In this document: in pieces, positions 17,981 to 50,846 of the stretch | How the letters are laid out: each line of letters begins with the position of its first letter | Position numbering within the stretch: position 1 is the first letter of the stretch | NCBI GenBank assembly: GCA_021805735.1 | Contig: JAJZEE010000014.1 | Location: 1-50,846, forward strand | DNA from: Bacillota bacterium | GTDB lineage: Bacteria; Bacillota; Bacilli; Alicyclobacillales; SLC66 | Length of the DNA: 50,846 bases | Direction: 5' to 3' | The notes under the pieces: model-generated | Told to the model about the DNA's origin: nothing | The model's database searches: none | The model's input: only the letters and a program-made list of their open reading frames with translations | Translations under genes and position numbers: made by a program

Positions 17981-18012
17981 TACATACGTTCTACACAGAA
18001 AATCGCCCCCCC

Positions 18013-18362: not shown

Positions 18363-18422
18363 AAGATTTTTATCTAGTGAAAAAGCACAAGATTTGCTTT
18401 TCGAAATCTAATGGTTTGTCGC

Positions 18423-18504
18423 TCAAAAACCCATATGTGGTGCGGTCGAGAGGACTTGAACCTCCACGCCCTGACGGGCACAAGAACCTGAATCTTGCGC
18501 GTCT
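18423..18504. repeat. Attachment-site copy within tRNA-Leu
   Basis: The copy of the 82-bp direct repeat that lies in the intact tRNA-Leu gene, identical to 12584-12665. The distance between copies is 5,839 bp. Confidence 0.92.
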
Positions 18505-18524
18505 GCCAATTCCGCCACGACCGC
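18438..18524 (-). tRNA. tRNA-Leu (anticodon CAG)
   Basis: Acceptor stem GCGGTCG/CGACCGC, anticodon stem CAAGA/TCTTG with loop TTCAGGT (anticodon CAG), a long class II variable arm, T-loop TTCAAGT and encoded CCA. The gene is complete and serves as the integration site of the element to its left. Confidence 0.97.
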
Positions 18525-18643
18525 ATGACACATTGATACTATACAAGGGTTTTCACACCGAGTCAACCCTCATGAAAAAGCTTTGACACCTACCGCGCGA
18601 TCCAGTGACAACAACCCGACCAGGCACGCATCGTTGTCGTTTG

Positions 18644-18652
18644 CATATGATA
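18644..18652 (+). promoter_or_regulatory. Possible sporulation-sigma -10 element of cotJAB
   Basis: CATATGATA, 37 bp before the cotJA start, fits the -10 pattern of mother-cell sigma factors (SigE CATA-type, SigK CATAnnnTA). In Bacillus subtilis the cotJ operon is SigE-dependent. No convincing -35 element was found at the right distance. Confidence 0.35.
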
Positions 18653-18688
18653 CAGCGCAAACCGCCTGAGATGACAGGAGCGTGAACG

Positions 18689-18904
18689 ATGATGGCAGAG
18701 GATGACTTGCTCTTTCCTGGATATATGTACCAGATAGACGTGACTGAGGAAATGGTAACTGGCCAGGTTCCGTACCCGTCTCCCTATGCGCACTTCCAGA
18801 AATACGACCTGCCCACGGCACTCCGCCAGGGAACGCTTTTCCCCTGGCTCGATGACCACTGGCGAGCACGCATCCGGGGCGACGGGGAGGCGCACAGGGA
18901 ATGA
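18689..18904 (+). CDS. cotJA: Spore coat-associated protein CotJA
   Basis: A 71-residue protein with SD AGGAG 7 bp before the ATG. It contains the CotJA-type segments PYPSPYAHFQKYDLPTALRQ and GTLFPWLDDHW. CotJA is an inner spore coat protein that needs CotJC for incorporation. Its TGA overlaps the cotJB start. The operon is split: cotJC is 3 kb away at 22006. Confidence 0.85.
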   Translation: MMAEDDLLFPGYMYQIDVTEEMVTGQVPYPSPYAHFQKYDLPTALRQGTLFPWLDDHWRARIRGDGEAHRE

Positions 18905-19170
18905 ACGGCCAGACTCTCGACCCTTACTACCATAGTGTATTGCGCGAACTGCAGTCGACCGGCTTCGCGCTCGTCGACCTCCAACTCTATCTCGACACCC
19001 ATCCTGACGATGCGGCGGCAGGCGCAGACTTTAAGACGTTGGCGCAACGTGAGCGATTGCTCAAGAGAGCGTACGAAGAGCGTTATGGGCCCCTCTGTCA
19101 CTACGGGGAATCCAGCTCGCCAGAGCGCGTTGATCTCTGGATCAATTCGCCCTGGCCCTGGCAATTGTAA
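18901..19170 (+). CDS. cotJB: Spore coat-associated protein CotJB
   Basis: An 89-residue protein with the CotJB pattern: YYHSVLRELQSTGFALVDLQ, then LYLDTHPDDAAA, and RAYEERYGPLCHYG near residue 60. It starts on the ATGA overlap with cotJA. Its role is in coat assembly with CotJA and CotJC, known from Bacillus genetics. Instead of cotJC, a large inverted repeat and an MFS gene follow. Confidence 0.88.
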   Translation: MNGQTLDPYYHSVLRELQSTGFALVDLQLYLDTHPDDAAAGADFKTLAQRERLLKRAYEERYGPLCHYGESSSPERVDLWINSPWPWQL

Positions 19171-19253
19171 AGGAGTCAGCGCCTGACTCTGCTGTGGACC
19201 ATGTCCAGATATATAGGCGTTGGCAGCATAGCCATAATGCCCCCAGTATCCGG

Positions 19254-19307
19254 CAGGCGGCTTTCAATGATATCCTGCGGCAGCATGATATCATTGAAAG
19301 CCGCCTG
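19254..19307. repeat. Perfect 21-bp inverted repeat
   Basis: Two perfect 21-bp arms (left arm 19254-19274, right arm 19287-19307) around a 12-bp spacer. The arm begins CAGGCGGCTTTCAATG. The spacer contains a further CTGC..GCAG palindrome. No T-run follows on either strand, so it is not a standard terminator. It lies in the 269-bp gap after cotJB. Possible origins are a small miniature element end pair or a large operator/RNA hairpin. Confidence 0.9.
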
Positions 19308-19439
19308 CTCCATGCTCAAACTGTCCTTATAGACGCCATGTGGCGGGGAGAAGGGGCTCACTCACACAATGCGCGCCTACTATGTTATTATAGAGTGACC
19401 TTTGTTTCGTCTACCGAAGTATTTAGGGAGAGATTCAAC

Positions 19440-20624
19440 ATGCGCAGGCTGTTTCCCCCCGCCGTCTGGGCAACGGCGTTTGCCACTCTGATTGCATTTA
19501 TGGGAATCGGCGTCGTCGATCCCCTATTGGCGCTCATCGGGAAAGCGATGGGCGCTACGCCGTTTCAGGTCGAGTGGCTCTTTACAAGCTATATCGCAGT
19601 GATGGCCGTGACCATGTTGATATCAGGCGTGCTTGCTACACGCCTGGGCGGCCGCAGGGTCATGCTGATCGGCTTGTCGCTGGTCGTCGTATTTGCTGCC
19701 TTAAGCGGATTATCTCCCAATATCGAATTTCTCGCCATCGTTCGCGCGGGTTGGGGTTTAGGCAACGCATTTTTTACATCGACAGCGCTGTCCATCATCG
19801 TGGGCGCATCTACAGGAGGCATGGCTTCGGCCATCACTCTGTACGAGGCTGCTCTCGGTCTGGGGATCGCTTCAGGACCGCTGATCGGTGGATTTCTCGG
19901 CAGCTACACCTGGCGACTCCCCTTTTTCGGCACGGCGACACTCATGCTGATTGCGGTGATATTCACGTTCTTTCTCGTTCATGATCCGCGCCGTGAGCCT
20001 CCACGCACCATGACGGATCTGTTTGTGGCCATGCGCCATCCGGCGGTGCTCACCAATGCGTTGATCGGACTCGCATACAGCTATGCTTTTTTTACAATTT
20101 TGGCCTACTCACCGCTCACACTCAAAGGCCTGAGCAGTCTCTCATTGGGCTTTACGTATTTTGCCTGGGGCATTCTCGTCGGCATTTCATCCGTCTTTGT
20201 CGTTAATTGGCTGCGACCAATAATGGGCCCGATTCGCCTGTTGCAGTTCAACCTGATCGGACTTATTTTCGTGTTTGCAGCGGCTGGCGCAGTACGCGGC
20301 GACGCTCTGTTGTGGGTCATTGTAATCTCCGGGTTCTTTTGTGGCATTGCCAACGCCCTGTTTACAACTCTGGCCATGGAAGTGTCTCCTTTTTCCCGTT
20401 CGATTTCCTCGGGCACCTATAATTTTCTGCGCTGGGCTGGCGCGGCCATCGCGCCCATTCTAAGCGGCCTCATCGGTCCGCGTTTTGGGATGCAAGTGCC
20501 ATTCTGGATCGCCGGCGCACTTTTGGTCGTTGGCAGCCTGGCGTTGGTGTTTGCCCGCCCCATGCTCGAGCGCAACCTTGAAGCAAACGGACATGCAGAA
20601 GGGTTGCACACCCAGCATGCGTAA
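19440..20624 (+). CDS. MFS drug-resistance-type exporter
   Basis: A 394-residue protein with 12 hydrophobic helices. ATG 19440 is preceded by AGGGAGAG; the frame is open further upstream only through the inverted repeat. It starts AVWATAFATLIAFMGIGVVD, then the family loop ISGVLATRLGGRRVMLIGL (motif A variant). Pattern of DHA1 exporters, proton-coupled export of small molecules; substrate unknown. It interrupts the spacing between cotJAB and cotJC together with moaA. Confidence 0.87.
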   Translation: MRRLFPPAVWATAFATLIAFMGIGVVDPLLALIGKAMGATPFQVEWLFTSYIAVMAVTMLISGVLATRLGGRRVMLIGLSLVVVFAALSGLSPNIEFLAIVRAGWGLGNAFFTSTALSIIVGASTGGMASAITLYEAALGLGIASGPLIGGFLGSYTWRLPFFGTATLMLIAVIFTFFLVHDPRREPPRTMTDLFVAMRHPAVLTNALIGLAYSYAFFTILAYSPLTLKGLSSLSLGFTYFAWGILVGISSVFVVNWLRPIMGPIRLLQFNLIGLIFVFAAAGAVRGDALLWVIVISGFFCGIANALFTTLAMEVSPFSRSISSGTYNFLRWAGAAIAPILSGLIGPRFGMQVPFWIAGALLVVGSLALVFARPMLERNLEANGHAEGLHTQHA

Positions 20625-22005: not shown

Positions 22006-22578
22006 GTGTGGATCTATGAAAAGAGACTTCAATACCCAGTTCGCGTGAGCAAGAAAGATGTGGGCATGGCCAAATTCCTCATCACGCAGTACGGCGGACC
22101 CGACGGGGAACTCGCCGCGTCTTTGCGTTATTTGAATCAGCGTTACGCCATGGAAAACAGAACAGCCGTGGCGATTCTGACCGATATCGCCACGGAGGAG
22201 TTTGCGCACCTGGAAATGATCGCGACCATGGTGTACAAACTCATCAAGGACGCCACTCCCGAGGAGATGCGCGCCGCTGGGCTCGGTGGGCATTTTGCGG
22301 ATCACGGGCATGATCTGTTTTACACGGACGGCAATGGAGTCCCCTTCTCCGCCACTTACTTTCAGGCCAAGGGAGATCCAATCGCCAATCTTTACGAAGA
22401 CATCGACGCGGAAGAAAAGGCGCGCGCCGCATATCAGCATCTGATCGACTTGACCGATGACCGCGACTTGCAAGACGGACTTATCTTCTTGCGGGAACGC
22501 GAGGTGGTCCACTCGCAGAGGTTTCGAGAGGTGCTCCAAGTTGTCAAAGAGGAAGAGAGCCAAAGAAAAATCTATTGA
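22006..22578 (+). CDS. cotJC: Spore coat protein CotJC (manganese catalase family)
   Basis: A 190-residue protein; GTG 22006 is preferred because GGGGGTGG lies 5 bp upstream and MWIYEKRLQYPVRV matches the usual CotJC start (an earlier GTG at 21997 is in frame). Di-manganese ligands typical of the family are visible: Glu35 (GGPDGELAAS), Glu and His in ATEEFAHLEM (about 65 and 68), and the later EREVVHSQRF. It packs into the coat and may break down peroxide. It is detached from cotJAB by an MFS gene and moaA. Length matches CotJC, shorter than full Mn-catalases. Confidence 0.93.
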   Translation: MWIYEKRLQYPVRVSKKDVGMAKFLITQYGGPDGELAASLRYLNQRYAMENRTAVAILTDIATEEFAHLEMIATMVYKLIKDATPEEMRAAGLGGHFADHGHDLFYTDGNGVPFSATYFQAKGDPIANLYEDIDAEEKARAAYQHLIDLTDDRDLQDGLIFLREREVVHSQRFREVLQVVKEEESQRKIY

Positions 22579-22599
22579 ACTCCACGTGCCCAGGTTCGC

Positions 22600-24423
22600 C
22601 TATCCTCTCGCCACCGGCGATAATGTGAGAATGTCGACCGCTGCCGTGGCGGGAGCCTCGATCCCCGATTTTTCGTACAGACGAGCGTACATGCCTCCCT
22701 TTGCAACGAGCGTCTCATGATCCCCCTGCTCTATGATCCTGCCCCGATCAAGCACGATAATCTGGTCGGCATGGCGAATGGTCGACAAGCGATGGGCAAT
22801 CACCAATGTAGTACGGTTCTTTGCCACCGCCTGCAAGCCCCTTTGCACCCAGGCTTCCGTTTGGCTGTCAAGACTGGCTGTCGCTTCATCCAGAATCAGG
22901 ACTCGCGGGTTCAGAAGCACAACACGCGCAAAGGACACAAGCTGGCGCTCCCCCATGGAGAGATTGGCGCCCTTGGCAAAGAGTTTCGTCTCGTACCCCT
23001 GAGGAAGACGGCGGATGATCTCATCGGCGCCGACGGCTTCCGCCGCTCGTATGACATCCTGCTCGGAAAATTCACCCCGAAACATTCGGATGTTGTCCGT
23101 GACTGTGCCGCTAAACAGGTGCACATCCTGTTGCACCAGACCAATCATGCGATGCAAGTCTTCCTGTCGATACTCGCGCACATCGACGTCATCGACAGTC
23201 ACTCGCCCTTGCGAAACATCGTAAAAGCGGGTGAGCAGACTCATGATGGAACTCTTGCCGGCGCCAGTAGCCCCGACGAACCCAACAAAAGCCCCGGGGG
23301 CAACGGCGAAAGAAATATCGTTCAGGACATTCTCACCGGGCTTATAGGCAAAACTCACTTGATCGAACTCGATCTTTCCGGTCACTTCGCGGGGCGTCAG
23401 TGGCTGAACTGGATCCGCGACATCTGGTTGGACTGCAAGGACGCGACCGATGCGATCGGCAGCCACGATGGAAGACTGCAACGTGTTCCACTGTTGAGTG
23501 ATCGAGTTGATCGGCTGGAAAAACTGGCGAATATATGTGATAAAGGCATACAGGGTGCCAAACAGAATCATATGGCCAATAACGGCGTTGCCGCCAACCC
23601 ACACGACGCCGGCCACCGCGACATTGCCGAGCAGATCGAGCGCGCGATTGAACTGTACAGACACCTGATACTCATGGACATTCGCAGAACGGTGCGCTTC
23701 ATTCAGAGATCGAAAGCGTTCGGCCTGACGATCTTCCTGGTGAAAGATCTGGGTAATGCGCATGCCCGCCAGATTTTCCGCCAAAAAACTCACGACGTTT
23801 GACAGTCGAGTCCGCGTGGTCTGGTAGGCGGTGCGAAGACGTTTGCGAAACAACAGTGAAATGGCAAAGATGATTGGCAACAAAACCATGCAATAGGCGG
23901 CTATCCGAGGACTGAGCTCAAACATGACGGCGATGATCATCACCAGGGAGAGCCCGTCGCGAACCATGCTGAGGAAAAATTGCGTAAAGAACTGGCTCAC
24001 GGTTTCCGTATCGCTCGATACATTGGTGACCAACCGCCCCAATGAGTTATTGTCAAAAAAACTCATGGACTGGCTTTCAATGTGGGAAAACAGCCGAATT
24101 CGAATCTTTCGGACGATGCTCTGCCCCACGTACTGCAATAACAAAATCTGAAAATAGTTGGCCGCCACACTGGCGATGACAGCTCCGATGTAGACAAGGC
24201 TCACCGCGATAAGCCCGTGCAAATCGAGGTGGGCGACGGAAATGTCCCGATCGATCGCAATTTTCACCAGGTAGGGCTGCAATACACTGGCAGCGTTGTA
24301 GATGACCACAAGTACAAACACAACTGCGAAATAACCGATGTAGGGTCTTGCGAAGGGAAGCAGATGCGCAAGGCTGGCCAGACCGCTGGTTGGTGTTGCG
24401 TCGCGCAACGTTTTTTGTCTCAT
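22600..24423 (-). CDS. ABC exporter half-transporter, subunit 2 of heterodimer
   Basis: A 607-residue fusion of a six-helix membrane domain and a nucleotide-binding domain. Walker A GATGAGKSS is near residue 390, Walker B VLILDEATAS with the catalytic Glu near 515. The signature is LSMGERQL instead of LSGGQ. In heterodimeric ABCB-type exporters (BmrCD, TM287/288) the degenerate ATP site is formed by the altered signature of one subunit and the altered Walker B of the other, which is the pattern here. ATG 24423 overlaps the stop of the partner by four bases. Likely multidrug or lipid exporter. Confidence 0.93.
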   Translation of the reverse strand: MRQKTLRDATPTSGLASLAHLLPFARPYIGYFAVVFVLVVIYNAASVLQPYLVKIAIDRDISVAHLDLHGLIAVSLVYIGAVIASVAANYFQILLLQYVGQSIVRKIRIRLFSHIESQSMSFFDNNSLGRLVTNVSSDTETVSQFFTQFFLSMVRDGLSLVMIIAVMFELSPRIAAYCMVLLPIIFAISLLFRKRLRTAYQTTRTRLSNVVSFLAENLAGMRITQIFHQEDRQAERFRSLNEAHRSANVHEYQVSVQFNRALDLLGNVAVAGVVWVGGNAVIGHMILFGTLYAFITYIRQFFQPINSITQQWNTLQSSIVAADRIGRVLAVQPDVADPVQPLTPREVTGKIEFDQVSFAYKPGENVLNDISFAVAPGAFVGFVGATGAGKSSIMSLLTRFYDVSQGRVTVDDVDVREYRQEDLHRMIGLVQQDVHLFSGTVTDNIRMFRGEFSEQDVIRAAEAVGADEIIRRLPQGYETKLFAKGANLSMGERQLVSFARVVLLNPRVLILDEATASLDSQTEAWVQRGLQAVAKNRTTLVIAHRLSTIRHADQIIVLDRGRIIEQGDHETLVAKGGMYARLYEKSGIEAPATAAVDILTLSPVARG

Positions 24424-39279: not shown

Positions 39280-40311
39280 TCACAACCCGACAGAGTTCAT
39301 GTAGCCAGCACTATACGGGCCTGGCAACCCATATCGATTCATCCACTGGATCCAAGCATAGGTCGAAGCAAACCAATGCTTATTGAACAGGGCGTGGTGA
39401 CCCGTTTTGTACAGAACCAGGTTGACGACCTTGCCTTCCTTCTTCATCCGTTGATACAACGACTCCACCGTTTGCCAGATGACTGTATTATCTTCCTCTC
39501 CCTGCAACAGAAGCACCGGAGCTTGCATCGTAGATGTGTGATCATACGGCGAGCGCACTGCAAAGCGTGCGTTCCCATAGGTTTGCCCGCCAAATGCTGC
39601 AAATGTCGGCCACTCGTGCAACCTTTTGGCCCAATAGTAGGTGATATCCCAGCCAACAAACGGGCTGACTGCGACCACAGCACGAATCCCCTTTTGTTCC
39701 GAGGCAAGCATAAGAGCAGCGCCTCCGCCCATCGATATGCCCCACAAGTAAGTGTCCTTGGGTTTCACGTGGTGCAACGACTTCGCTGCAATGATCGCAT
39801 TCTCAGCGTCCAGTGTGTCGCCAAGCATTCCGTGCACACTCCCTTGACTCTCCCCGTACCCGCGATAGGCTGGCGTGATAGTGACGGTCCGAGAGGAATA
39901 GTCGGTCCATGGAGAAGAAGGGAACACCTGGGTGCCCTGGACCATCGTAACATGGTGCATGTGTCGACTATACACGGCCCATCCTCCATGCAAAAAAACC
40001 AGCAAGGGGTATCGCCCTGAGCGCACAGGTTCCGTCAACCATGCCTCCACCTTTTTGCCAGCGCTCCAATAAAACATCTTGAACACGCTGACCTTGGGAT
40101 TCACGTACCCCCCTTTCCCATGTACCAATGTCAGGGAAGCGATTTCCCCGTTATGCTCCACAGCGTGTGAAGCGGTGGCTTGCGTGTGGGCCGAACTCAC
40201 TGACGGAGAGCAGCTACCCAGCGCAACTGTCGTCATGATGGCTACAGCAATCTTGGCGATGTGTCTACCAAAGCCCGACTTCTTCTTGGACTGATCGACT
40301 TGGCGCTTCAT
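39280..40311 (-). CDS. Alpha/beta-hydrolase lipoprotein (S9-peptidase/esterase-like), copy 2
   Basis: A 343-residue protein. ATG 40311 follows AGGGGGCAG. A basic N-terminus, hydrophobic stretch IAKIAVAIMTTVALGSC and Cys at about 34 form a lipoprotein signal. The fold is that of S9-type hydrolases: LLVFLHGGWAVYSR (oxyanion), WGISMGGGAALML (nucleophile Ser), LLLQGEEDNTVI (acid), TGHHALFNKH (His). It should act on the outer face of the membrane on peptides or esters. The adjacent copy 1 has the same C-terminus (PGPYSAG-MNSVGL), evidence for tandem duplication. Confidence 0.88.
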   Translation of the reverse strand: MKRQVDQSKKKSGFGRHIAKIAVAIMTTVALGSCSPSVSSAHTQATASHAVEHNGEIASLTLVHGKGGYVNPKVSVFKMFYWSAGKKVEAWLTEPVRSGRYPLLVFLHGGWAVYSRHMHHVTMVQGTQVFPSSPWTDYSSRTVTITPAYRGYGESQGSVHGMLGDTLDAENAIIAAKSLHHVKPKDTYLWGISMGGGAALMLASEQKGIRAVVAVSPFVGWDITYYWAKRLHEWPTFAAFGGQTYGNARFAVRSPYDHTSTMQAPVLLLQGEEDNTVIWQTVESLYQRMKKEGKVVNLVLYKTGHHALFNKHWFASTYAWIQWMNRYGLPGPYSAGYMNSVGL

Positions 40312-41060
40312 TTTTCTGCCCCCTGTCCAAGTTTCCCATTTCGCTCGTGATGCCCATCGTTCTACTCAACCCGTTAGTCTTCCGTACACAATACCCGACA
40401 AATCCCACTGCCAATACTTTCTCGTTATGGAAATGGAATCATTCGTCTTCGATTGGGGAAGGGTGTTTTCCCATGAATGAACGAGATATGGTACTGCTCA
40501 GGCTCCAGCAAGTCCGTACGCAAATGCGGATACCCATGTTCTGGACCCAGCCAGCCGACAAGCCAATGGTCATGCAGCGCGTTCCCAAACCAATGCCCAA
40601 GACTACTGGAATATGATGGTACAAAGAGACCTTGCTGAACGGGAATCCGTTAGTAGTACTGGTGTTTGGTGGCGCTGGCGTCGGGGAACTGCCTCCGCTG
40701 CGGCTACCCCTGCGGCCCCATCTGGAGAACATTTCAATTAGAAACATTTCCCTGATACAAAACTAGCATATGTTATGCGTAATGTAAAGTAATGTATATG
40801 AATTCTACTGCACGTTTGTTTATAACCTATTCCATCCTGTCTATGTCATTAATTTTCTACACACAAACCTTATATAGATGGATTTTTCATCCTCCCAAAG
40901 GTGACTGAGCATACCGCTGCGGATGCATAAAAATGCAATTTGTTCCACTTTCGCTCTCCGCGCCCCAAGTTCTGCCCCTCGACCTTCACACACAAATAAA
41001 AACCGCGCCACGACAGTATCCTGACCTGTCACAGCGCGGCTATTGCCGTGTGCATACATA
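40312..41060. other. Poorly coding region beside the island junction
   Basis: About 750 bp between the lipoprotein gene and the rnpB fragment. It holds one doubtful gene (40439-40747) and an AT-rich stretch at 40740-40860. Two CGCGCC/GGCGCG-like inverted bases near 41010-41040 could form a hairpin. Nothing else supported. Confidence 0.35.
40439..40747 (-). CDS. Doubtful hypothetical protein
   Basis: A 102-codon frame from ATG 40747 with a Ser/Pro/Thr-rich N-terminus (SGGSSPTPAPPNTSTT) and a hydrophobic patch (HHIPVVLGIGLGTR). A weak AGGGA precedes it. No family recognised; it may be a remnant. Confidence 0.25.
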   Translation of the reverse strand: MFLIEMFSRWGRRGSRSGGSSPTPAPPNTSTTNGFPFSKVSLYHHIPVVLGIGLGTRCMTIGLSAGWVQNMGIRICVRTCWSLSSTISRSFMGKHPSPIEDE

Positions 41061-41265
41061 CGGAAGCAAGCAGTAAGCCGAGTTCTGTTCCCTCAGTGCT
41101 GCAAGCGGCGCGGGCTGCCTGCTTGCGGACATAGCCCGCAAGCGGCGACAGCGGTCGCGCCTCGCACGATGAGGGCGGCAATCATCTATCTAGGCGGCAT
41201 GTTTCCATACTGCTCAAGCGACCTACCCGAGTGCGTGACGGGAACTTGGCTACGCCAGCCGCCTT
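41061..41265 (-). ncRNA. rnpB: RNase P RNA (rnpB), 3' fragment
   Basis: On the reverse strand the segment carries the conserved 3' landmarks of bacterial RNase P RNA: CTCGGGTAGGTCGCTTGAG, then CCTAGATAGATGATTGCC, and near the end ACAGAACTCGGCTTAC. Between them lies a long GC-rich hairpin (GCTTGCGG/CCGCAAGC). The 5' half, including the CR-I region and P4 5' strand, is missing: upstream (to the right) the sequence turns into the integrase gene at 41355. The fragment cannot be functional. It most likely marks an integration junction, with an intact rnpB elsewhere. Confidence 0.8.
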
Positions 41266-41354
41266 GATTTTACGCCATAAAAACATAAGTTTGCTTACCG
41301 TATTCTACTCCGAGTTATCGCTCTCTTCATAAATCAAATGAAGGGATGATTGGG

Positions 41355-42248
41355 ATGAAAAGGAGAAGTGATACGCTTCAAGAACTGTCCGAGGATTTTC
41401 TGTTTCACTTGGAAACACAGAACTACTCACCCGAGACCATCAAGGCGTACAGGAACGATTTTAAGTTGCTTAGTCGATTCCTTACCGACGAAGGCATCGC
41501 GGAGATAGGAGAAATTACCGCTTCAATCATGCGCAACTACGGCAAATGGCTTAAGCGAACAGGACACGTGGCAACAGGCATAGCGAGAAGGATTCATTCC
41601 GTAAGTTCATTTTTCAAATGGATGGAGGAAGATGAAATTATCAAGGACAACCCTATGCACAAGGTCAAAAGTCCTAAACGCGACAAACCTATTCCCATTT
41701 ACTTCCGTGACGATGAATTAGCACGTCTTCTCTGCGCACCAAGACTTGACCATCCATTAGATCAAGCCATCATGACACTTATTGCCAATACGGGATTGCG
41801 GAGACAGGAGGTTATTAATCTACAATTGCATGATGTAGATATCAACGCAAATTTACTCAAAGTTAGAAAAGGAAAAGGCGGCAAAGATAGACTCATTCCA
41901 TTGAATAAACAAGCCAAGCAAGCCTTAGCCCATTATCTAACAGTACGACCTGTTGTCGAGTATTCTGCATTTTTTATAGCTATGCGGCATAAACGTCTGC
42001 CAATTGGCTCCGCCTATCTGCATAGGCTGTTCCACGATTGTCTGGATCAGGCTGGCATCACCAGAAAGGGTTTAACGCTTCACAAGCTAAGACATACTTT
42101 CGCCACAAGATTATTGGAGAGAGGGGCAGATCTTAGAACACTACAGGAACTCTTAGGGCATCAGGATTTGTCCACAACCCAGATTTACGCACACGCAAGC
42201 AAAGAACGATTGTCACGGGCTGTAAACCTATTGGATGAAACAATGTAA
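41355..42248 (+). CDS. XerC/XerD-type tyrosine recombinase (island integrase)
   Basis: A 297-residue protein; ATG 41355 has AAGGG 9 bp upstream, while ATG 41346 would abut it. SAM-like N-terminal domain (about 8-95) and catalytic domain with all residues present: Arg149 (TGLRRQE), Lys near 173, His243 and Arg246 (HKLRHTFA), His269 (GHQ), Tyr278 (TTQIYAH). Intact, unlike the two integrases at tRNA-Leu. It begins 90 bp from the rnpB fragment and reads away from it, the expected position for the integrase of an element inserted in rnpB. Confidence 0.93.
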   Translation: MKRRSDTLQELSEDFLFHLETQNYSPETIKAYRNDFKLLSRFLTDEGIAEIGEITASIMRNYGKWLKRTGHVATGIARRIHSVSSFFKWMEEDEIIKDNPMHKVKSPKRDKPIPIYFRDDELARLLCAPRLDHPLDQAIMTLIANTGLRRQEVINLQLHDVDINANLLKVRKGKGGKDRLIPLNKQAKQALAHYLTVRPVVEYSAFFIAMRHKRLPIGSAYLHRLFHDCLDQAGITRKGLTLHKLRHTFATRLLERGADLRTLQELLGHQDLSTTQIYAHASKERLSRAVNLLDETM

Positions 42249-42263
42249 AACCACAATTTAGAT

Positions 42264-42299
42264 CAACGGGGGGCGGTCATCATATGCCGCCCCTCGTTG
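42264..42299. terminator. Strong hairpin after the integrase
   Basis: A 13-bp stem with one G-U (CAACGGGGGGCGG with CCGCCCCTCGTTG) around a 10-base loop, 16 bp after the integrase stop. There is no U-run, so termination is uncertain. Confidence 0.5.
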
Positions 42300-42555
42300 A
42301 ACCATCAATTACGGACAACAAAACGCCATGATTAGTCACGCAGCTTAAAACTCCATTCTCACCCAACCGCCGCCCACTACCAAACTCATGTATAGAGCTA
42401 CTATGAAAACTCAATATTTCAGCTTTTTTCTGCACTTGCAAAATATATGCATTATTCGCTTGATGATACCTGCAATTACTCAATTTTGTGTGTTTCGTCT
42501 CTTTGGGACATCGACTGATGGTGTACTCAAACGTAGATTGTGCACTCTAATACTG

Positions 42556-42578
42556 AGGGGCGACATCGAATCGCCCCT
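42556..42578. terminator. Hairpin after the anchored coiled-coil protein gene
   Basis: A perfect 8-bp stem AGGGGCGA/TCGCCCCT with a 7-base loop, 30 bp past the stop at 42610 of the leftward gene. No clear U-run. Confidence 0.45.
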
Positions 42579-42609
42579 GAAGCTGTCAACGGGTACTACA
42601 TCATTAATC

Positions 42610-43470
42610 TTAGGACCACGTTGAACCATCGGTAAAATGTACTTCAGTGATCGCTACGTTGATGTTCGTCGTTGTGTCTTGGGTTGCCAGCATCCAAGAA
42701 TAATCGTATCCTGTTGTTTCTCCTGGTTGAAGGCTAATATTCTGTTCAATACCATTAAATATGTTGTTACCACTAACAATATCATTCACCGGAGAACCAA
42801 AAGCGTCGTAGCAACTAATGGCCACCTTATATGCATCAATGGTCTTATGGCTCACATTTTCAACGATCACGTAAGCCTCCGGTGTGTTGATGCTATCTGG
42901 TTGTACGTACGCCTTGATAACTTTCAATGGGCATGCCGCGATATTCTCCTGCTGTTTCTTCTTTTGCACTGCTTGTTCTTGGTCTTGTTTCACTTGGGCA
43001 GTCAACTGCTTCACTTTCTTTTGTAGGTTTTTAATATCTGACGTGTCCTGAAGTCTTTGTAGCATTTTCCCACCAGATTGACTTCCCATAAATTGTTTTA
43101 ACTGTGATAGTTCTTTTTCCGCCGATGCCTGATTATAATCTGCAACTTCCAACATAGATAGTTCCTGAGACGCGATGTTACTACCCAGATTCGTTTCGAT
43201 GTCCGTTCTAATTGACAATGGGCCATTACCCAATTGTTGCATAACGTAATTTTCAACTTTCACAACAGATTTGGCAGAAACCATCCCCGTATAATGTAAA
43301 TTTTTGAATTCTTCCTCTACCAAAGATAGTTTTGCACTTGCATCGAGACTTGTCCATTGGCTGTCATTTGAGTCTAAGGTTACTTGTGACGTTCCCCAGA
43401 CAATGACCACAACCACAACCACAGCCAAAGCCAGACTAGTCACAATATATATTCCTCGTCGTGACAACAC
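42610..43470 (-). CDS. Membrane-anchored coiled-coil protein with C-terminal beta domain
   Basis: A 286-residue protein. An N-terminal helix (IYIVTSLALAVVVVVVIVWG) acts as an anchor or uncleaved signal. Residues about 110-170 form a coiled coil (NLQKKVKQLTAQVKQDQEQA). From about 180 an Ig-like/FxLYD-type domain follows (AYVIVENVSHKTIDAYKVAI). It should sit on the outer membrane face. Codon use is AT-rich, unlike the backbone. The function is unknown. The next genes to the right on the same strand are also secreted. Confidence 0.75.
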   Translation of the reverse strand: MLSRRGIYIVTSLALAVVVVVVIVWGTSQVTLDSNDSQWTSLDASAKLSLVEEEFKNLHYTGMVSAKSVVKVENYVMQQLGNGPLSIRTDIETNLGSNIASQELSMLEVADYNQASAEKELSQLKQFMGSQSGGKMLQRLQDTSDIKNLQKKVKQLTAQVKQDQEQAVQKKKQQENIAACPLKVIKAYVQPDSINTPEAYVIVENVSHKTIDAYKVAISCYDAFGSPVNDIVSGNNIFNGIEQNISLQPGETTGYDYSWMLATQDTTTNINVAITEVHFTDGSTWS

Positions 43471-43709
43471 AATACGCCCCCCATATTCAGCATAAGAAAA
43501 TTTAAGTCATGGTGCCTGTGAAAAAAAACAAACTCATGTGAAGTCTAGTCAGATCGTCATTTACGATGCACAGCATAGTGTCTACTTCGGAATGTGAACA
43601 CTATATGTTGATGCCGATGAATCGAATTGGTGATTTTCGTTTGCACAAAGTCCCTCTTTTACAGGTTCTCTAGGGTTCCCGCCCTTTTTATCTTGGTTAG
43701 TTCACTCCT

Positions 43710-44260
43710 TTAATTACCAAGGGTCTGCCACGCGTCGTCAGCCTTCAGCGTATTAGAAGCAATATCCTGTCTAAGATCCTTGTCTTGTGTGTTCATTGAT
43801 GTAAAATCATGTGCAGTATTGTACCTGTTCATCCAGTAAATATAATACGTGTCATAACTCAAATTCTCATACAGCGTCAGAGCAATGTTTTGTATCTTTT
43901 TGCCGGAACCGTTAATCGCATACCACCACATTCTTTTTTCTTCAATCAACATTACGGGCCTGTAAGGGTCTGATTTTCTCAAAAACTGCGGTGTACTGAT
44001 TTGTTTATATCCAAGTTCTTCTCTTGCAAGTGCATAATCACTAGCAAAATTGTCGATGTTCTCTATTGAACTCATGGATGCAGACTGAAAATTAATTTCT
44101 GCTTGCAAAGTGTTCAAACTTTGATTACTTGCAGCCAAAGCCAAGGCTCCGTTTCCACTCAGATTGGGACCCACACCGGACACAATAAAACACACCGCTA
44201 GTCCAAGGCTTACTGCAACCCTTTTTTACTGTTAATTTTGTTTTTCATTGTCGTTTTCAT
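43710..44260 (-). pseudogene. Secreted protein, frameshifted at a poly-A run
   Basis: ATG 44260 (SD AGGGGAG) gives MKTTMKNKINSKKGLQ and a stop. One base out of frame from the AAAAAAGGG run at about 44221-44229 the sequence reads VAVSLGLAVCFIVSGVGPNL and continues to 43710. Joined, it is a normal signal peptide and a 150-residue mature part (TYYIYWMNRYNTAHDF near the end). The indel lies in a homopolymer, so it could be a sequencing artefact or a slippage switch. Family not recognised. Confidence 0.65.
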
Positions 44261-44551
44261 TACAAGCTCCCCTTTTTGTTTTTAGGTTTTACGTCAATCC
44301 TTACTCCTTTGCTTCAGGTGCAACGTACACGGTGTCTGTTCCAGTTTCCACAGGACTTTCATTCCATCTCCAATTCTCTGACTTGCACATAGGACAACCA
44401 ATCCTTTTAATGGTTTCAAAATATATCAACGGTCGCTCTTTTTGTTATGTAGATTCATCTCCTTTGCGTTCCTCCAGTGCTGCAAACGACATCTTCTTAG
44501 AGCGTGGTTACCGCGCATCGCTTAACATACTGTCACAAACAACGATGGCAC

Positions 44552-45397
44552 TTAACTCAATCCAATTTCATCTTTTGCAGTTTCTTGCCCATTTTGAAAC
44601 ATGATCGTTACTATTACATTGTTTTGTTGCCACAAATAAGTCGTAAGATCATAATTCGTGCCTTGACCTGCTTCAGATTGCAATGTTCCATCAATGCCAA
44701 AAAGCTGGTTTACTTGGTCAACTGTGTAACTGGAATCGATTAACTGAAAGTTTGCATATGTAAAACCACTTGAATCAATCGGAACACTACCTGAACTCCA
44801 CGAATTCGGGTTATAATTATTTGGAATTTTGTTAATTTGATCCTGAATATTATTTGGAATTTTCATTACATTCGGTTTCATACCATAGGCGATCATTTCA
44901 TCGCAAGCTATGGAATAAGGAGTTTTAAATAGTCTTATTCTGTATAAAACTTGATTAACATCCTTCTTATATGAACCGCCTACACTCTTTACGAATTCGC
45001 CATCGACCGATTGAGCGTATATGGAAATTTTATTTAAATGACTTATTATTTGTTTTTGATTATTGGCCATGAGTTGATTCCATTTTATCGAAATACCACT
45101 TATGGTAGGAATGTCTTCAGATATTCTCATGTCCCAAATTTGATTATTCTCCAAATAGCCTGAATCACCGTTAAAATAGCCTGATTCATTGCCGCTCCGA
45201 TAATCTGACAAAGCTTTTTCAAGTCCAAACAAGAATTCATTGATATCTCTCGCTGTATTATTTACCGCTTTCAAGTATACTGCAATGTTTTTATCCTTTA
45301 TCACTTTTGCAGGTTTCGATGCTGCAAACGCTGTCGTATTAAACATCATAGCAACTGCAAACATCACTGCTGAATATCCCAAGGAGAATTTCTTCAT
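44552..45397 (-). CDS. Secreted protein with BLIP/DUF3862-like C-terminal domain
   Basis: A 281-residue protein starting MKKFSLGYSAVMFAVAMMFN with cleavage after AFAA near residue 26. ATG 45397 is preceded by GAGAGGGCG; an in-frame GTG at 45406 is too close to it. The last 80 residues (SSYTVDQVNQLFGIDGTLQS, then a Tyr/Trp strand TYLWQQNNVIVTIMFQNGQ) resemble the SmpA/BLIP-type repeats of DUF3862 lipoproteins. The middle is Asn/Pro/Ser rich. Function unknown; part of a group of three exported proteins on the island. Confidence 0.75.
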   Translation of the reverse strand: MKKFSLGYSAVMFAVAMMFNTTAFAASKPAKVIKDKNIAVYLKAVNNTARDINEFLFGLEKALSDYRSGNESGYFNGDSGYLENNQIWDMRISEDIPTISGISIKWNQLMANNQKQIISHLNKISIYAQSVDGEFVKSVGGSYKKDVNQVLYRIRLFKTPYSIACDEMIAYGMKPNVMKIPNNIQDQINKIPNNYNPNSWSSGSVPIDSSGFTYANFQLIDSSYTVDQVNQLFGIDGTLQSEAGQGTNYDLTTYLWQQNNVIVTIMFQNGQETAKDEIGLS

Positions 45398-45650
45398 TAT
45401 ATACACGCCCTCTCATTTCATGTCTAATTTCCACGTTTTCTAGTATCATCATCCAGTAAATACACGCCATCACACCCAGCACCAAGAGAAAGATAATGCA
45501 ATGATCACTATGGTTATTCTGACAACAATATGCCTCCTGTGCTGTGCTCTTGAAGGATAACTTCGTTTTTACAACGATTTGCTTTCTTATATGATTATAA
45601 ACCCATTATCCGTTTGTTGTATATATGCAACGGACTTAGCACGATAATTC

Positions 45651-45682
45651 TGTAAGCATTCCCTTGGATGGGAGTGCTTACA
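45651..45682. promoter_or_regulatory. Operator-like inverted repeat at the XRE gene start
   Basis: TGTAAGCATTCCC and GGGAGTGCTTACA, 13-bp arms with one mismatch around TTGGAT, directly before the GTG at 45683. The right arm includes the SD. Bound repressor or an mRNA hairpin would block the start. GATAAT at 45643-45648 could be the -10. Confidence 0.65.
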
Positions 45683-45919
45683 GTGACTAGCGAAGAAGCC
45701 TTCGGAATTGTATTAAGGCAGCACAGGCTGCGATTATCGTTATCCCAAGAGGAGTTGGCTATTCGCTCTAATGTGGATCGGACATTCATTTCACACATTG
45801 AAAGAGGCAAACACCAGCCAACCATAACAACAATTTTCAAATTGGCGCAGCAGTTGAACCTGACACCAAGCCAGATGATTCGCGAGGCTGAAGATTTGTT
45901 GGCCAAAGCCACAAAATAA
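45683..45919 (+). CDS. XRE-family regulator, possible restriction-modification C protein
   Basis: A 78-residue single-domain HTH_XRE protein: FGIVLRQHRLRLSLSQEELA, then SNVDRTFISHIERGKHQPTI. GTG 45683 is preferred because GGGAGTG serves as SD and an inverted repeat ends just before it; an in-frame ATG lies at 45668. Size and sequence fit the controller (C) proteins that time expression of type II restriction enzymes. A palindrome at its own promoter fits autoregulation. It is 2-4 kb from the R-M genes and faces away from the TIR genes, so the target is unproven. Confidence 0.82.
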   Translation: MTSEEAFGIVLRQHRLRLSLSQEELAIRSNVDRTFISHIERGKHQPTITTIFKLAQQLNLTPSQMIREAEDLLAKATK

Positions 45920-46146
45920 TTATAATAGAATGGAATAATTGATCATCATTTGTTAAACGGCTTTAAATTTCTACGCAATACCTGAACCTGAATTATCTGC
46001 AGGCAAAGAGGAGCCGCGATAAATGTATCTAGCGACATTGTCATCTCCCTTTCTTACGCAATCATCCCGAACTAATTTTTGTAGACTGATTCCCAAGTTT
46101 CTATTCATCCAACTCCAGCTTTAAAATCAGTATTTTACATCGATTA

Positions 46147-46692
46147 CTAAATTCCCCATAAGCGATAGGTATCCTCAGAGTAATACATGAGACTTCCTGG
46201 AGGCAGATTGTTATGGTTAAACTGTTGAACTGCATCGGCTAATGGTTCCTTTTTGAACGGAACGTGGATTATAGACGCTGTCTGTGCCTCGATTCGACTC
46301 TTTAGTGCTGGGGGCCACCATGTTGCTAACGCACTTGGATTTAATACTCGACCTGCATGCATCGTGTAGGCGGCAATAACGGGGATTTTGCACGTATCGA
46401 CTGCATAACTGATTTCATACGGTATCCAGTCAGGGTCGTTCTTAGTCGTTTCCCCTATTATCAGAATCATATTCTTTGAATTGTTGATCCTTTCAATCAA
46501 CTTCCTCTCAATTACTTCGCGTTGACTACCTTGTCTAATAGAATTCTTCTCATGACTATCGACAAACTTGAAGTCACCTTCATCACGAACATTCCAAGCC
46601 GATAGGAGACGGTAGTACTTAATGTCTGTCTCAGTTTGATTTTCAGGGTGGTCTGCATGAAATGCAATATAAGTGCCGTTTCTATATGCCAT
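46147..46692 (-). CDS. ThsB-like TIR-like (DUF1863) protein, copy 2
   Basis: A 181-residue protein; ATG 46692 follows AAGGGGGAATAGAA. It begins MAYRNGTYIAFHADH, a typical first strand of DUF1863/ThsB TIR-like domains, with INNSKNMILIIGETTKNDPD and IPYEISYAVDTCKIPVIAAY near residues 70-108. Glu93 (PYEIS) occupies the conserved position of the TIR catalytic Glu. Thoeris ThsB proteins sense phage and make NAD-derived signals. It is paralogous to the gene 19 bp upstream (46712); the leader GGAATAGAAATGGC is shared too. It ends with a Tyr-containing segment MYYSEDTYRLWGI. Confidence 0.85.
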   Translation of the reverse strand: MAYRNGTYIAFHADHPENQTETDIKYYRLLSAWNVRDEGDFKFVDSHEKNSIRQGSQREVIERKLIERINNSKNMILIIGETTKNDPDWIPYEISYAVDTCKIPVIAAYTMHAGRVLNPSALATWWPPALKSRIEAQTASIIHVPFKKEPLADAVQQFNHNNLPPGSLMYYSEDTYRLWGI

Positions 46693-46711
46693 TTCTATTC
46701 CCCCTTATTTG

Positions 46712-47197
46712 CTATTGGTTAAATTGTTTGTAGTAATACCTACTCCCCGTCTTCTTCTTCGCTGTTTCATGATAGTAATCAGGCCAGTTCTTAAGAGCAT
46801 GAACAATTGCATCCTGTTTAAAAGGTACATGAACGACAGTTGCATCCCTGACTATCGGAGGACATAATTCTTCGTCCACCCCATTCGTTTTATTCAGATT
46901 TATAGCGATTATCGGAATACTCTTGTCTAGTGCAATTTCCATTTCCCAGCGAACAAACTTATTCAAATTTTTTGTCTTCTCCCCCACAAGTAACAAGGCT
47001 ACTTTAGTATTGTTCATTCGGTTTCGAAGATTCCTCTTTATATTGTCCTCCGTGTACACTCGAATATTGTTTAAATCATGTGCGTTGTTAAACTCAAATT
47101 CGAATTTTTCATTCTCATCCCATGCTTTCAATAAAGCATACCATTTCATGTCAGTGTCAGCGTCAAATATTGTATAGACTTTATTCCTATACGCCAT
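46712..47197 (-). CDS. ThsB-like TIR-like (DUF1863) protein, copy 1
   Basis: A 161-residue protein with AGGAGG before ATG 47197. It begins MAYRNKVYTIFDADTD. The core NNTKVALLLVGEKTKNLNKF and VRWEMEIALDKSIPIIAINL, with conserved Glu85 (RWE), closely resembles ThsB of Bacillus cereus Thoeris. The C-terminus is Lys/Tyr-rich (KKKTGSRYYYKQFNQ). Multiple ThsB copies in one locus are common in Thoeris, where they may recognise different phage cues. It starts 11 bp after the channel-like gene. Confidence 0.87.
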   Translation of the reverse strand: MAYRNKVYTIFDADTDMKWYALLKAWDENEKFEFEFNNAHDLNNIRVYTEDNIKRNLRNRMNNTKVALLLVGEKTKNLNKFVRWEMEIALDKSIPIIAINLNKTNGVDEELCPPIVRDATVVHVPFKQDAIVHALKNWPDYYHETAKKKTGSRYYYKQFNQ

Positions 47198-47208
47198 TTC
47201 TATTCCTC

Positions 47209-47886
47209 CTATTGATCTTTGGTTTCTGCCATTGGCAACGAGCGAGCAAGCACAACAACAACGAAAAAGAAGACAAACACAGTTTCTGACATCGTAAGTA
47301 TACGCCCATTTTGTGTTATAGGGGAAACGTTTGAATATGCCGCTGGGATTGTGTTCGACATGCTGTAGAGAAAGGCTGATACCCAGTTGGGTTTCTCATG
47401 TAACCAAAGAAACTGGCTAGTAAATGCAATTCCGTAGAGATAAGTGTAGCACAGTTCCAGATACACAATGGATATTAAAAAATTCAAGAACCTTCTTCTA
47501 ACCCTATGAAGCGTTTGAAACCTGCCAAGAACTGCGTTTTTCTCCCATACATGATAATAAAAATAGGTAAAGGAATTCGAAAGTGCAAGATAAACAATGG
47601 AGGCGGTGAATATTGCGCCATGACCATTCTTCAATATAATCAAACAGATATATAGAACTTTCAGAACAATAAGCAGGTCGACTACACGATTTGAAACTCT
47701 ACGTTTTAGTCTATTTAATTCATCTTGACTTACACTGTCCCTATACATGCGTTCGACAATTCGAGTGGATAAAAACTTGAACCACTCAGGAAAGTTAAGC
47801 CAGCAAAAAAACGTTATGATGGCATCCATGAGGGGATAGATAAAGCCATTATCTCCTGCCTCTTCGTACCTTCGACCGTTATACAT
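47209..47886 (-). CDS. Channel-like membrane protein, candidate effector
   Basis: A 225-residue membrane protein; SD GAGGCGCAGG before ATG 47886. Helices are predicted at about 68-87, 90-111, 133-156 and 196-216, with a basic cytoplasmic stretch at 55-67 and 124-132. Residues 168-196 (AFLYSMSNTIPAAYSNVSPI then TQNGR) align with the pore helix and filter region of two-TM K+ channels (pattern Y-S-x-T-TVGYG-x-xP-x-T-x-x-GR), but TVGYG is replaced by IPAAYS. This suggests a pore with another selectivity or a gate protein. It is the first of three tightly spaced genes with two ThsB-like proteins. No SIR2, SLOG or Macro domain. Confidence 0.72.
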   Translation of the reverse strand: MYNGRRYEEAGDNGFIYPLMDAIITFFCWLNFPEWFKFLSTRIVERMYRDSVSQDELNRLKRRVSNRVVDLLIVLKVLYICLIILKNGHGAIFTASIVYLALSNSFTYFYYHVWEKNAVLGRFQTLHRVRRRFLNFLISIVYLELCYTYLYGIAFTSQFLWLHEKPNWVSAFLYSMSNTIPAAYSNVSPITQNGRILTMSETVFVFFFVVVVLARSLPMAETKDQ

Positions 47887-47924
47887 TGATTCCTGCGCCT
47901 CACTTATTAAAATTAACTTGGACT

Positions 47925-48740
47925 TTACGGAACATTTAATTGGGCAAGATATTCATCTTGTATTTCTGACGACTGAACCAGTTTATAGTGCCTTTCATCC
48001 TTTATTCGCGCATTCACTCCTTCGCAAGTCATGTGAAACATCGCGATAACATCATTGCTCATAAACTGAACAGCTACAGGCAAGCAGATCAATGTTGGGA
48101 ACTTTGTAGCGCAATAGTTCATATCCTGCGAAAGTTGTACAACTCCAATTTTGTCGTCACCTCCCTTCGCCTGTACAGGAACTATGAAATGCTGTCCACG
48201 TTTGTTGACCCCAACGTAAACCTCGTCTATCTCGATTTGCCCTATTCCCTGAACATTCGTCCTCAAATGATTCTGCAAAGAATATGCGGTAATGCCCAGA
48301 AACGTATCAATGAGCCTGTTGTAGCGAACTTTGCTCAATAGACCCTGTTCATCTGACAGTCTATATCGTTCGATGATCTCTGGTGTGTTATCTGGAATTT
48401 TTATGACCTCAAGCGCTGGGTTGGGCATGACAAATGGGGTCTCAGATAAAACGAATGAATACTGCCCATTTCCTTTACCTACGATTATCCAGTCTTGTCC
48501 CTCTGGCGTACTTTCCTTGACAATTTCGGGCATCTCTTTTCTATATCGAAAACTGTAAACTACATCCCCGACGTTCTTTGGAAGTCCAATGTCGAGCTTT
48601 TGAGCCGCAGTAATAATCTCTTCGCGAGTAAATTCTACGGATTGCATCCCAGGTCGAAACTTAGCGGAGAACACTTCGGAGATTAATTGACCATACTTTG
48701 TATCTGCTTTCTGGCTCCCATTCTTCTCCTTAGCCAACAA
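47925..48740 (-). CDS. Type II restriction endonuclease, PD-(D/E)xK type
   Basis: A 271-residue protein. The TTG at 48740 has GGAGGT 6 bp upstream and overlaps the methyltransferase end by 11 bp. The active site is visible near residues 165-195: QIEIDEVYVG, then FIVPVQAKGGDDK, an (E/D)...(Q)xK arrangement. The N-terminal 100 residues are a helical DNA-binding region. Adjacency to a cytosine methyltransferase supports the call. Recognition sequence cannot be read from this. Leftward, 39 bp from the channel-like gene. Confidence 0.85.
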   Translation of the reverse strand: MLAKEKNGSQKADTKYGQLISEVFSAKFRPGMQSVEFTREEIITAAQKLDIGLPKNVGDVVYSFRYRKEMPEIVKESTPEGQDWIIVGKGNGQYSFVLSETPFVMPNPALEVIKIPDNTPEIIERYRLSDEQGLLSKVRYNRLIDTFLGITAYSLQNHLRTNVQGIGQIEIDEVYVGVNKRGQHFIVPVQAKGGDDKIGVVQLSQDMNYCATKFPTLICLPVAVQFMSNDVIAMFHMTCEGVNARIKDERHYKLVQSSEIQDEYLAQLNVP

Positions 48741-50037
48741 TCATGACCTCCACCCGATTTCTGTTCCTTGTTCCTATAACGTCTCGCGGAACGCTGAAAT
48801 AATCCGCAGCCTGCGTCATATCGAAAGAAACAAGTTTTGCATCGCCTAACTCCACGGCTTCATTCGGTCGCTTTGGCACAATTCCGAGCGATTTAATGAT
48901 CTGACCAGCAACAGACCGAGCTAGCAAAGGAGGCACTGAATTTCCAACCTCGCGAAAACCATGCCATTTCGTTACGTGGAATCTAAACCAGTCTGGGAAC
49001 GAGTGTATCCTGGCCGCCTCACGTACACTAATACAACGAGGATAAATTGGGTGAATTGGTCGTGGACTCGTAAACGCCCCGCGCTTACTGTCCGTGCCTG
49101 CCCTTAGAGTATTTGAAATCCCATCGACATGTAAGCGAAAGAATCGACTAGTCGGTTCAATCGCACCACCTGGTGTATCCGCAAATCGCTTCATAGAGAG
49201 TTCAGTATGGACTGTTCGAAGCGAATTTGTAATGATTTGTCGGTTCCACACGCGCGGATAACTGTAGTCGCTTGGATCGTCCTCGATTCCGTGTAAACGA
49301 CGTGCATATTGAGACTTTGGATGTAATAGATAGTGCATAGAATCGCCGTCTAGTAGCTCTTCGTAAGAGTCAATGTCAGGCAAGTCGCCGATGGCTTCAA
49401 AAACGGAAGGACAGTAAGGCAACCCTGTGCTGTTGGTACTATTTCTTTCTTCAACACCCGTTTTACCTCTTATTAACGAAACTGGAACATGGTATACTGG
49501 AGCGGGCATGTCCAGTCTATATCCGAGCAAAAATAACCTTCTGCGATTCTGTGGAACCCCGAATGAGGCCGCATTTAACACCTTATATTCCACTACGGAG
49601 TATCCCGCCTCGCAGCACTCATCAATTAGCGTTTTTAGTAAATTATGAGCACTTCCAACCGTCAAACCTGCCACATTTTCCATCACGAAGTACTTTGGCT
49701 GTAAATCCCTGATTATTCTTGCGAAATGACCTAACAGAGCGTTCCTCGGATCGTCAATAAGTCTCTTCCCAATGAGCGAAAAACCTTGGCAGGGTGGCCC
49801 ACCGAACACTACATCGAGTTGTCCACGATCAACCCCAAGACGTTCCATTAAAGCGCTAGAAGTTACAGTTGAAATATCCGAACAAATTACTTCCGAACGT
49901 GGAAAATTGAAACTATGCACCGCTGCATGTACGGGATCTATTTCTACCGCGCCAATTACGTCAAACCCTGCCTGTTCAAATCCAAGCGACATTCCGCCCG
50001 CACCGCTAAATAGATCGAGTGCAACTGGTCTATGCAT
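48730..50037 (-). CDS. DNA (cytosine-5-)-methyltransferase
   Basis: A 435-residue enzyme from ATG 50037 (GGGGGAC upstream); earlier in-frame ATGs up to 50100 encode a hydrophobic non-family stretch. Motifs in order: I LDLFSGAGG (8-15), IV GGPPCQGFS with catalytic Cys83, VI MENVAGL, VIII PQNRRRLFLLG, IX/X REAARIHSFPDWF and EVGNSVPPLLA. It protects host DNA from the adjacent restriction enzyme. It is the first gene of the leftward defence operon and is divergent from vsr. Confidence 0.96.
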   Translation of the reverse strand: MHRPVALDLFSGAGGMSLGFEQAGFDVIGAVEIDPVHAAVHSFNFPRSEVICSDISTVTSSALMERLGVDRGQLDVVFGGPPCQGFSLIGKRLIDDPRNALLGHFARIIRDLQPKYFVMENVAGLTVGSAHNLLKTLIDECCEAGYSVVEYKVLNAASFGVPQNRRRLFLLGYRLDMPAPVYHVPVSLIRGKTGVEERNSTNSTGLPYCPSVFEAIGDLPDIDSYEELLDGDSMHYLLHPKSQYARRLHGIEDDPSDYSYPRVWNRQIITNSLRTVHTELSMKRFADTPGGAIEPTSRFFRLHVDGISNTLRAGTDSKRGAFTSPRPIHPIYPRCISVREAARIHSFPDWFRFHVTKWHGFREVGNSVPPLLARSVAGQIIKSLGIVPKRPNEAVELGDAKLVSFDMTQAADYFSVPRDVIGTRNRNRVEVMIVG

Positions 50038-50209
50038 TGCAAGTCCCCCAAGTGTCACGATTAAACCAATTACCATTGACGACATAAGAACGTACATCAC
50101 AATCTAATATAAGCGATATGTTCCGCTATGTACACAAGGCCGATATTGACTTGGGTTATGACAACGCACACATATGGCAATAAAATACATTAGAAGGCAG
50201 GTGTCCATT

Positions 50210-50620
50210 GTGACCGATCACGTATCTGCTGAAACTCGCTCTAAGATCATGCGTGCCGTTAAATCGAAAAAGACAGGGCTGGAAGAGAAAATTGCCGCAA
50301 ACCTACGCAAACGAGGAATACATATGCGAAGAAATGTGAACTCGCTCTTCGGAAAACCAGACTTCGCGCTGAAAGGTAAGAAGGTTGTAGTTTTCATCGA
50401 CTCGTGCTTTTGGCACGGTTGCGAGTCACACTCTCACCTGCCAAAATCGAACATAGAATTTTGGTCACGAAAGATTAAGCGAAATCGGCAACGCGATAGT
50501 GCGGTCAACGAGTATTACAAGTCAGTGGGATGGAAGATTCTCCGTTTCTGGCAGCACGACATTAAAGCGAATATTGATGAGGTTATAAACACAATATGCA
50601 GAGCGGTAAATGATGAGTAG
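50210..50620 (+). CDS. vsr: Very short patch repair endonuclease Vsr
   Basis: A 136-residue protein from GTG 50210 (SD AAGGCAGGTG); an in-frame ATG at 50174 adds an unusual N-terminus. Family motifs: SAETRSKIMRAVKSKKTG, KPDFAL with Asp51, VVFIDSCFWHGCESH (zinc ligands) and GWKILRFWQHDI. Vsr nicks next to T:G mismatches from deaminated 5-methylcytosine, which is why it accompanies the cytosine methyltransferase here. Divergent from it across 172 bp. Confidence 0.95.
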   Translation: MTDHVSAETRSKIMRAVKSKKTGLEEKIAANLRKRGIHMRRNVNSLFGKPDFALKGKKVVVFIDSCFWHGCESHSHLPKSNIEFWSRKIKRNRQRDSAVNEYYKSVGWKILRFWQHDIKANIDEVINTICRAVNDE

Positions 50621-50846
50621 GAAGTTGCCATTACACATCGAGGTTTACATGCTGATTTGCCACTGACACATGGTAATCCCTGCAAATGGTTTTAATCACA
50701 CCATCCCGCCATTCATCTAAACCACCATTCCGTTCGCAAGTTCAACGAAGTTCTCCCTACCTAGCTTCCTTTACTCTTTCTATCCGATGGGCGACACGTT
50801 TAGCAGCCAATAGTGCCTTATCCAGGGTATCGCAGTCGCTGGCCGT
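50621..50846. other. Right end of window
   Basis: No complete gene. A leftward frame enters from the edge (see 50757-50846). No attachment site or RNA gene seen. Confidence 0.4.
50757..50846 (-). CDS. C-terminal end of a leftward gene (partial)
   Basis: Thirty codons open to the right edge, ending DTLDKALLAAKRVAHRIERV, then KEAR and TAG. Helical, basic, plausible gene end; family not recognised. Confidence 0.3.
   Translation of the reverse strand, partial: TASDCDTLDKALLAAKRVAHRIERVKEAR

Follow-up and report, generated by a model that had tools for sequence, protein, structure and literature searches.

The question raised by this locus is how the 3′ part of an RNase P RNA gene (rnpB) came to stop abruptly beside an intact tyrosine integrase, and where the working gene would then be found. 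The window, by which is meant the whole stretch of 50,846 bp that was analysed, is the complete contig G000:C125 in the 170-contig draft genome (96.75% complete) of an environmental bacterium, and the right edge of the window is the end of that contig.

A displaced rnpB fragment at the edge of an AT-rich island

The features around the junction are as follows.

39280 to 40311, minus strand: alpha/beta hydrolase gene of the host flank, with 81% DNA identity to the gene downstream of rnpB in genome G002
40995 to 41057, minus strand: host DNA just downstream of rnpB, with a terminator-like hairpin (aligns to the downstream region of the G002 rnpB)
41058 to 41242, minus strand: last 185 nt of a class A rnpB, displaced, running from near P17 to the end of the gene (covariance search and alignment)
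41242 to 41243, no strand: left limit of the rnpB homology, taken as the left boundary of element-specific DNA (alignment)
41243 to 50846, no strand: visible AT-rich island, at least 9.6 kb, running off the contig end (composition and ORFs)
41346 to 42248, plus strand: intact tyrosine integrase (ORF, domain and homology searches)

The covariance search (cmscan) that a preliminary description of this DNA had called for matched the fragment on the minus strand to RF00010 with 34 bits (E 5e-9), the score falling below the gathering score of 100 bits because the 5′ half is missing; a search for a class B RNase P RNA gave no match. Against the full rnpB of G002, a member of the same genus, the fragment is 93% identical over 185 bp, the differences being some ten substitutions and a single gap of 4 nt. 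One pair of its P18 stem is broken by a substitution that leaves A opposite C (judged by eye), as expected of a fragment no longer under selection. By itself, a piece of 185 nt cannot function. Alignment with the full rnpB genes of the order placed a sharp stop of homology at 41242. The abrupt end described earlier was thus borne out, although it lies about 23 bp before the 41265 then claimed, and the integrase ORF, which is indeed intact, begins 103 bp further on (about 100-110 bp from 41242).

Rightward of the junction the base composition changes as had been described, G+C dropping from 55% to 42% (0.549 over the 10 kb preceding the junction, 0.417 from 41243 onward). Among windows of 9.6 kb to the left of the junction, G+C ranged from 0.531 to 0.581, with none below 0.531.

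An island-free relative and a gap in the assembly

The preliminary description had suggested comparison with an island-free relative. G002 is such a relative: its rnpB is complete and is followed by the same flank, including the corresponding hydrolase gene; positions 40951-41242 of the window (292 bp, comprising the fragment and the DNA downstream of it) align to G002 at 86%. On the other side, contig G000:C161 of the source genome carries rpoD and the genes that lie upstream of rnpB in G002, and breaks off shortly before rnpB, within a hairpin that is present complete in G001. An assembly gap therefore takes in both the 5′ part of rnpB and the far end of the island.

This gap bears directly on the reading that rnpB is truly broken, with the RNase P RNA either working as two trans-acting pieces or lost altogether. 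Neither a 5′ half, a second copy of the 3′ part, nor an intact gene was found in the draft assembly, as that reading would have it, but an upstream contig ending in a hairpin immediately before rnpB accounts for the missing half. RnpA is encoded in the source genome, which argues that the RNA-based RNase P has been kept and that an rnpB must exist, and a full rnpB is retained in all complete islands found (see below). We consider a truly broken gene very improbable. The preliminary description had held that the lack of a direct repeat of the 3′ fragment would speak against integration; such a repeat is indeed lacking from the draft, but only trivially so, since the far end falls in the gap, and no contradiction arises.

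Contigs G001:C135, G004:C26, G009:C35, and G000:C161 all end in or close to rnpB, the end in G009 being some 20 nt or less from the P17 site at which the homology of the window begins. Such ends could be due to hairpins or to strain variants with islands in rnpB.

The integrase

Profile searches assigned the protein a Phage_integrase domain and a SAM-like domain, and the R..K..HxxR..H..Y residues are legible in its translation. Translation more likely starts at the ATG at 41355 than at 41346, because a 64%-identical relative starts with MKRR at the matching place and a GAAGGG lies at a normal distance. The protein fell well short of the scores expected of a housekeeping XerC or XerD: it reached 226 bits against the XerC equivalog cut-off of 335 and 218 bits against the XerD cut-off of 330, while a same-genus XerD used as a control (G001, L333) scored 386 bits, above its own cut-off.

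A search for homologues across 59 genomes from the order returned mostly matches of 33-39% identity, which are probably housekeeping Xer proteins. The two nearest relatives are each encoded on a contig that also bears rnpB: an intact integrase in G036, the closest of the intact ones, and a decayed one in G031 (70% identical to that of the window), 1.5 kb from rnpB. In the tree, the integrases of the window and G036 are sisters (99/93) outside the housekeeping Xer set, and that of G058 was placed with this pair with weak support. No tRNA target was found beside the other integrases of this clade.

Related islands in rnpB within the order

Two members of the order provide islands with both ends visible. 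In G036, which belongs to another family, the displaced block and the full rnpB are on the same contig:

18301-18474: displaced block
18590-19498: integrase, 64% identical to that of the window in the search (189 of 299 aligned residues, 63-64%)
22172-22600: full rnpB, 301 bits

The order of this 3.6-kb island is displaced block, integrase, hydrolase, IS3-type transposase, and full rnpB, the hydrolase and transposase being identified by reading the translations. Its direct repeat matches at 172 of 174 bp, the block consisting of the last 72 nt of rnpB and 102 bp of downstream DNA, and the DNA to the left of the block is collinear with the DNA downstream of rnpB in G032. The second island lies in G058, a near-complete genome in two contigs:

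3194634-3194723: displaced block of 90 bp, with 84% identity to the rnpB 3′ end (29 nt) and the 61 bp that follow it
3194889-3195818: integrase, 38% identical to that of the window
3219870-3220324: full rnpB, 25 kb from the integrase

The arrangement of the window recurs in both islands, with the fragment at the outer edge and the integrase transcribed from its side toward the interior; in G036 and G058 a full rnpB, oriented like the fragment, closes the opposite end.

These islands weigh on two further readings of the junction. The first is an assembly chimera, in which a host rnpB was falsely joined to an unrelated low-G+C contig at the palindromic P17 hairpin. Homology does stop inside the palindrome (GTGACGGCCCGTCAC in G002), and other contigs of the family (in G001, G004, and G009) break at or near rnpB; against this, the nearest relative of the junction integrase, in a different family, likewise adjoins a displaced rnpB fragment, so that a false join is most unlikely, if slightly less so than a truly broken gene. 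The second is an old rearrangement, a deletion or transposition having joined the fragment and the integrase at a junction that the integrase did not make. The unassembled far end leaves room for such an event, and a block of 185 nt exceeds what a core site needs, but the same order and orientation recur in G036 and G058 (fragment, integrase facing away from it, cargo, full rnpB), and we give an old rearrangement the same very low standing as a truly broken gene.

The reading of the preliminary description, an element integrated in rnpB that left a 3′ fragment, is by contrast supported by these complete islands, which have the same layout and related integrases, and we hold with high confidence that the window contains one end of an element integrated in rnpB by a tyrosine integrase, with the displaced 3′ fragment left behind. 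On the proposed mechanism, the element would form a circle bearing its own copy of the rnpB 3′ end, and the tyrosine integrase would recombine this circle with the rnpB of the chromosome. A full rnpB would be rebuilt at one end from the 5′ part of the host and the 3′ part of the element; at the other, which is the end seen in the window, the old 3′ end of the host would be displaced beside the integrase. The rebuilt rnpB would lie beyond the contig edge in the assembly gap, so an intact rnpB is to be expected at the far end of the island in the source genome, and the island may still be mobile.

G043 and G053, in which a recombinase lies just downstream of a full rnpB, were considered as further islands and rejected, as no displaced fragment was found: none was present in the 240 kb searched in G043, where conservation with G042 extends past the terminator, and the contig of G053 stops 2.4 kb beyond rnpB, which limits the search there. 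The tyrosine recombinases concerned (L281 in G053, L283 in G043) lie a few hundred bp downstream of the gene. The DNA downstream of rnpB seems to be variable in this order.

Where the crossover falls

The block common to both ends differs in length from case to case: 185 nt in the window (by comparison with G002), 46 bp in the phage record G063 described below, and shorter blocks than that of the window, each including DNA from beyond the gene, in G036 (72 nt of rnpB) and G058 (29 nt). The exact crossover is not fixed, given the differing block lengths of the window, G036, and G058. All four blocks contain GAACTCGGCTTA close to the 3′ end of the gene, which places the crossover probably inside the fragment, near GAACTCGGCTTAC. 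The part of the window fragment upstream of the crossover would then have been brought in by the element. The P17 loop was also considered as the crossover and rejected, because the blocks of G036 and G058 reach back only 72 and 29 nt into the gene.

Cargo of the island

Beyond the integrase, the visible part of the island encodes the following.

42610 to 43470, minus strand: DUF5780 protein, function unassigned (profile search)
43710 to 44195, minus strand: protein without a family match (profile searches)
44552 to 45406, minus strand: protein without known function (profile searches)
46147 to 46692, minus strand: ThsB-like TIR protein (Thoeris; profile searches)
46712 to 47197, minus strand: second ThsB-like TIR protein (profile searches)
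47209 to 47886, minus strand: membrane protein, weakly matching a two-helix ion channel at a score just under the Pfam cut-off
47925 to 48740, minus strand: type II restriction endonuclease (homology)
48730 to 50100, minus strand: C5 cytosine DNA methyltransferase (homology)
50174 to 50620, plus strand: Vsr-type nicking endonuclease (homology)

Judged from homology, the visible cargo would serve mostly in anti-phage defence. The two TIR proteins matched ThsB with E values of 1e-57 and 9e-60, and no match to ThsA was found among the ten island proteins. At 46147-47886, the two neighbouring ThsB-like genes are followed by the channel-like membrane protein in the place of ThsA. The latter is a possible effector of the TIR proteins, and the three genes possibly form a Thoeris-like system with a different effector. 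The marks of a phage-inducible chromosomal island (PICI) were also sought, and the ten predicted proteins of the visible part include no SaPI-like repressor, terminase small subunit, or packaging-interference protein.

In the G058 island, an AbiA-like reverse transcriptase and a SLATT protein adjoin the integrase (L347, 14889-18227), and a DAC-domain protein and a TOTE-type primase are found deeper inside. Taken with the window and the Clostridium case below, this suggests that defence genes may be frequent in rnpB islands.

The window contains a second, classical tRNA island at 12599-18524, with a full tRNA-Leu(CAG) at 18438-18524 on the minus strand, an identical copy of its last 67 nt at 12599-12665 (minus strand), and a decayed tyrosine-integrase remnant at 18016-18279 (minus strand).

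rnpB as an integration target elsewhere

Scanning of IMG/VR with a 15-base motif of the rnpB 3′ end returned at least 120 stretches, many of which, having no other rnpB sequence, are probably chance matches; those linked to an integrase were therefore compared with random positions. A tyrosine-integrase ORF lay within 150 bp at 7 of 120 loci among the matches listed, against a random-position mean of 0.6 outside integrase ORFs, or of 3.0 when positions inside integrase ORFs are counted, by which latter comparison the excess is modest. The clear case is IMGVR_UViG_3300035388_000034 (G063), a record of 41.7 kb in which the two copies of a 46-bp direct repeat of the rnpB 3′ end (96%) are separated by 39.5 kb, with an integrase at a distance of 51 bp from the copy in the rebuilt gene. 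The rnpB-linked integrases of IMG/VR are only 24-33% identical to that of the window, and the site thus seems to have been taken up on more than one occasion. A genus-specific rnpB pattern had no match in IMG/VR, and the rnpB fragment itself matched no phage record and, weakly, one plasmid record.

A separate group of seven IMG/VR records (L159, L161, L191, L192, L218, L231, and L236) end 29-162 bp after the 3′ end of rnpB and have an integrase-like ORF upstream of rnpB, at a constant distance of about 1.1 kb; the rnpB 5′ motif is also present in most of them.

The one clear precedent found in the open literature for an element in rnpB is that of Clostridium novyi sensu lato, where the gene is split by a putative PICI whose cargo includes restriction-modification and Cas14a-like genes (PMC8473940). 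The earlier remark that rnpB is unusual as an attachment site beside tRNA and ssrA genes is thus fair but overstated, given this case and several phages in IMG/VR. The Clostridium PICI resembles the island of the window in its split rnpB, tyrosine integrase, restriction-modification cargo, and Bacillota host (PMC8473940). It differs in its SaPI-like repressor, its terminase small subunit gene, and its CRISPR arrays with Cas14a-like genes; the visible 9.6 kb of the present island showed none of these and has ThsB-like proteins instead. The prophage G063 differs in being phage-sized and in having a distantly related integrase, which stands beside the rebuilt gene and not the displaced fragment. 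With islands of the tRNA and tmRNA type (PMC4383910, PMC12424338) the window shares a tyrosine integrase, a target split near its 3′ end, and a displaced fragment at one end, with a rebuilt gene expected at the other as in the whole islands of G036 and G058, whereas its target is the RNase P RNA gene and its fragment, at 185 nt, is long.

Significance

The island is a further case of a known, gene-regenerating type of element, in a target rarely recorded. Surveys of islands look to tRNA and tmRNA genes first and file the remainder as protein-coding or intergenic sites. As an essential, single-copy gene with a highly conserved end, rnpB suits the same strategy as tRNA genes, and the presence of the same kind of element in the rnpB of other members of the order argues that it is an under-recorded docking site of their sort. 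Whether the rnpB 3′ end is, more widely, an overlooked att site of several unrelated tyrosine-integrase lineages across phyla, and in this order a hot spot at which defence islands come and go, is a proposal to which we give even weight for and against. With complete examples and related integrases to hand, island finders can look for rnpB directly as an att site; the examples also add integrases for a site found in most bacteria and mark the DNA adjacent to rnpB as a place in which to seek defence systems.
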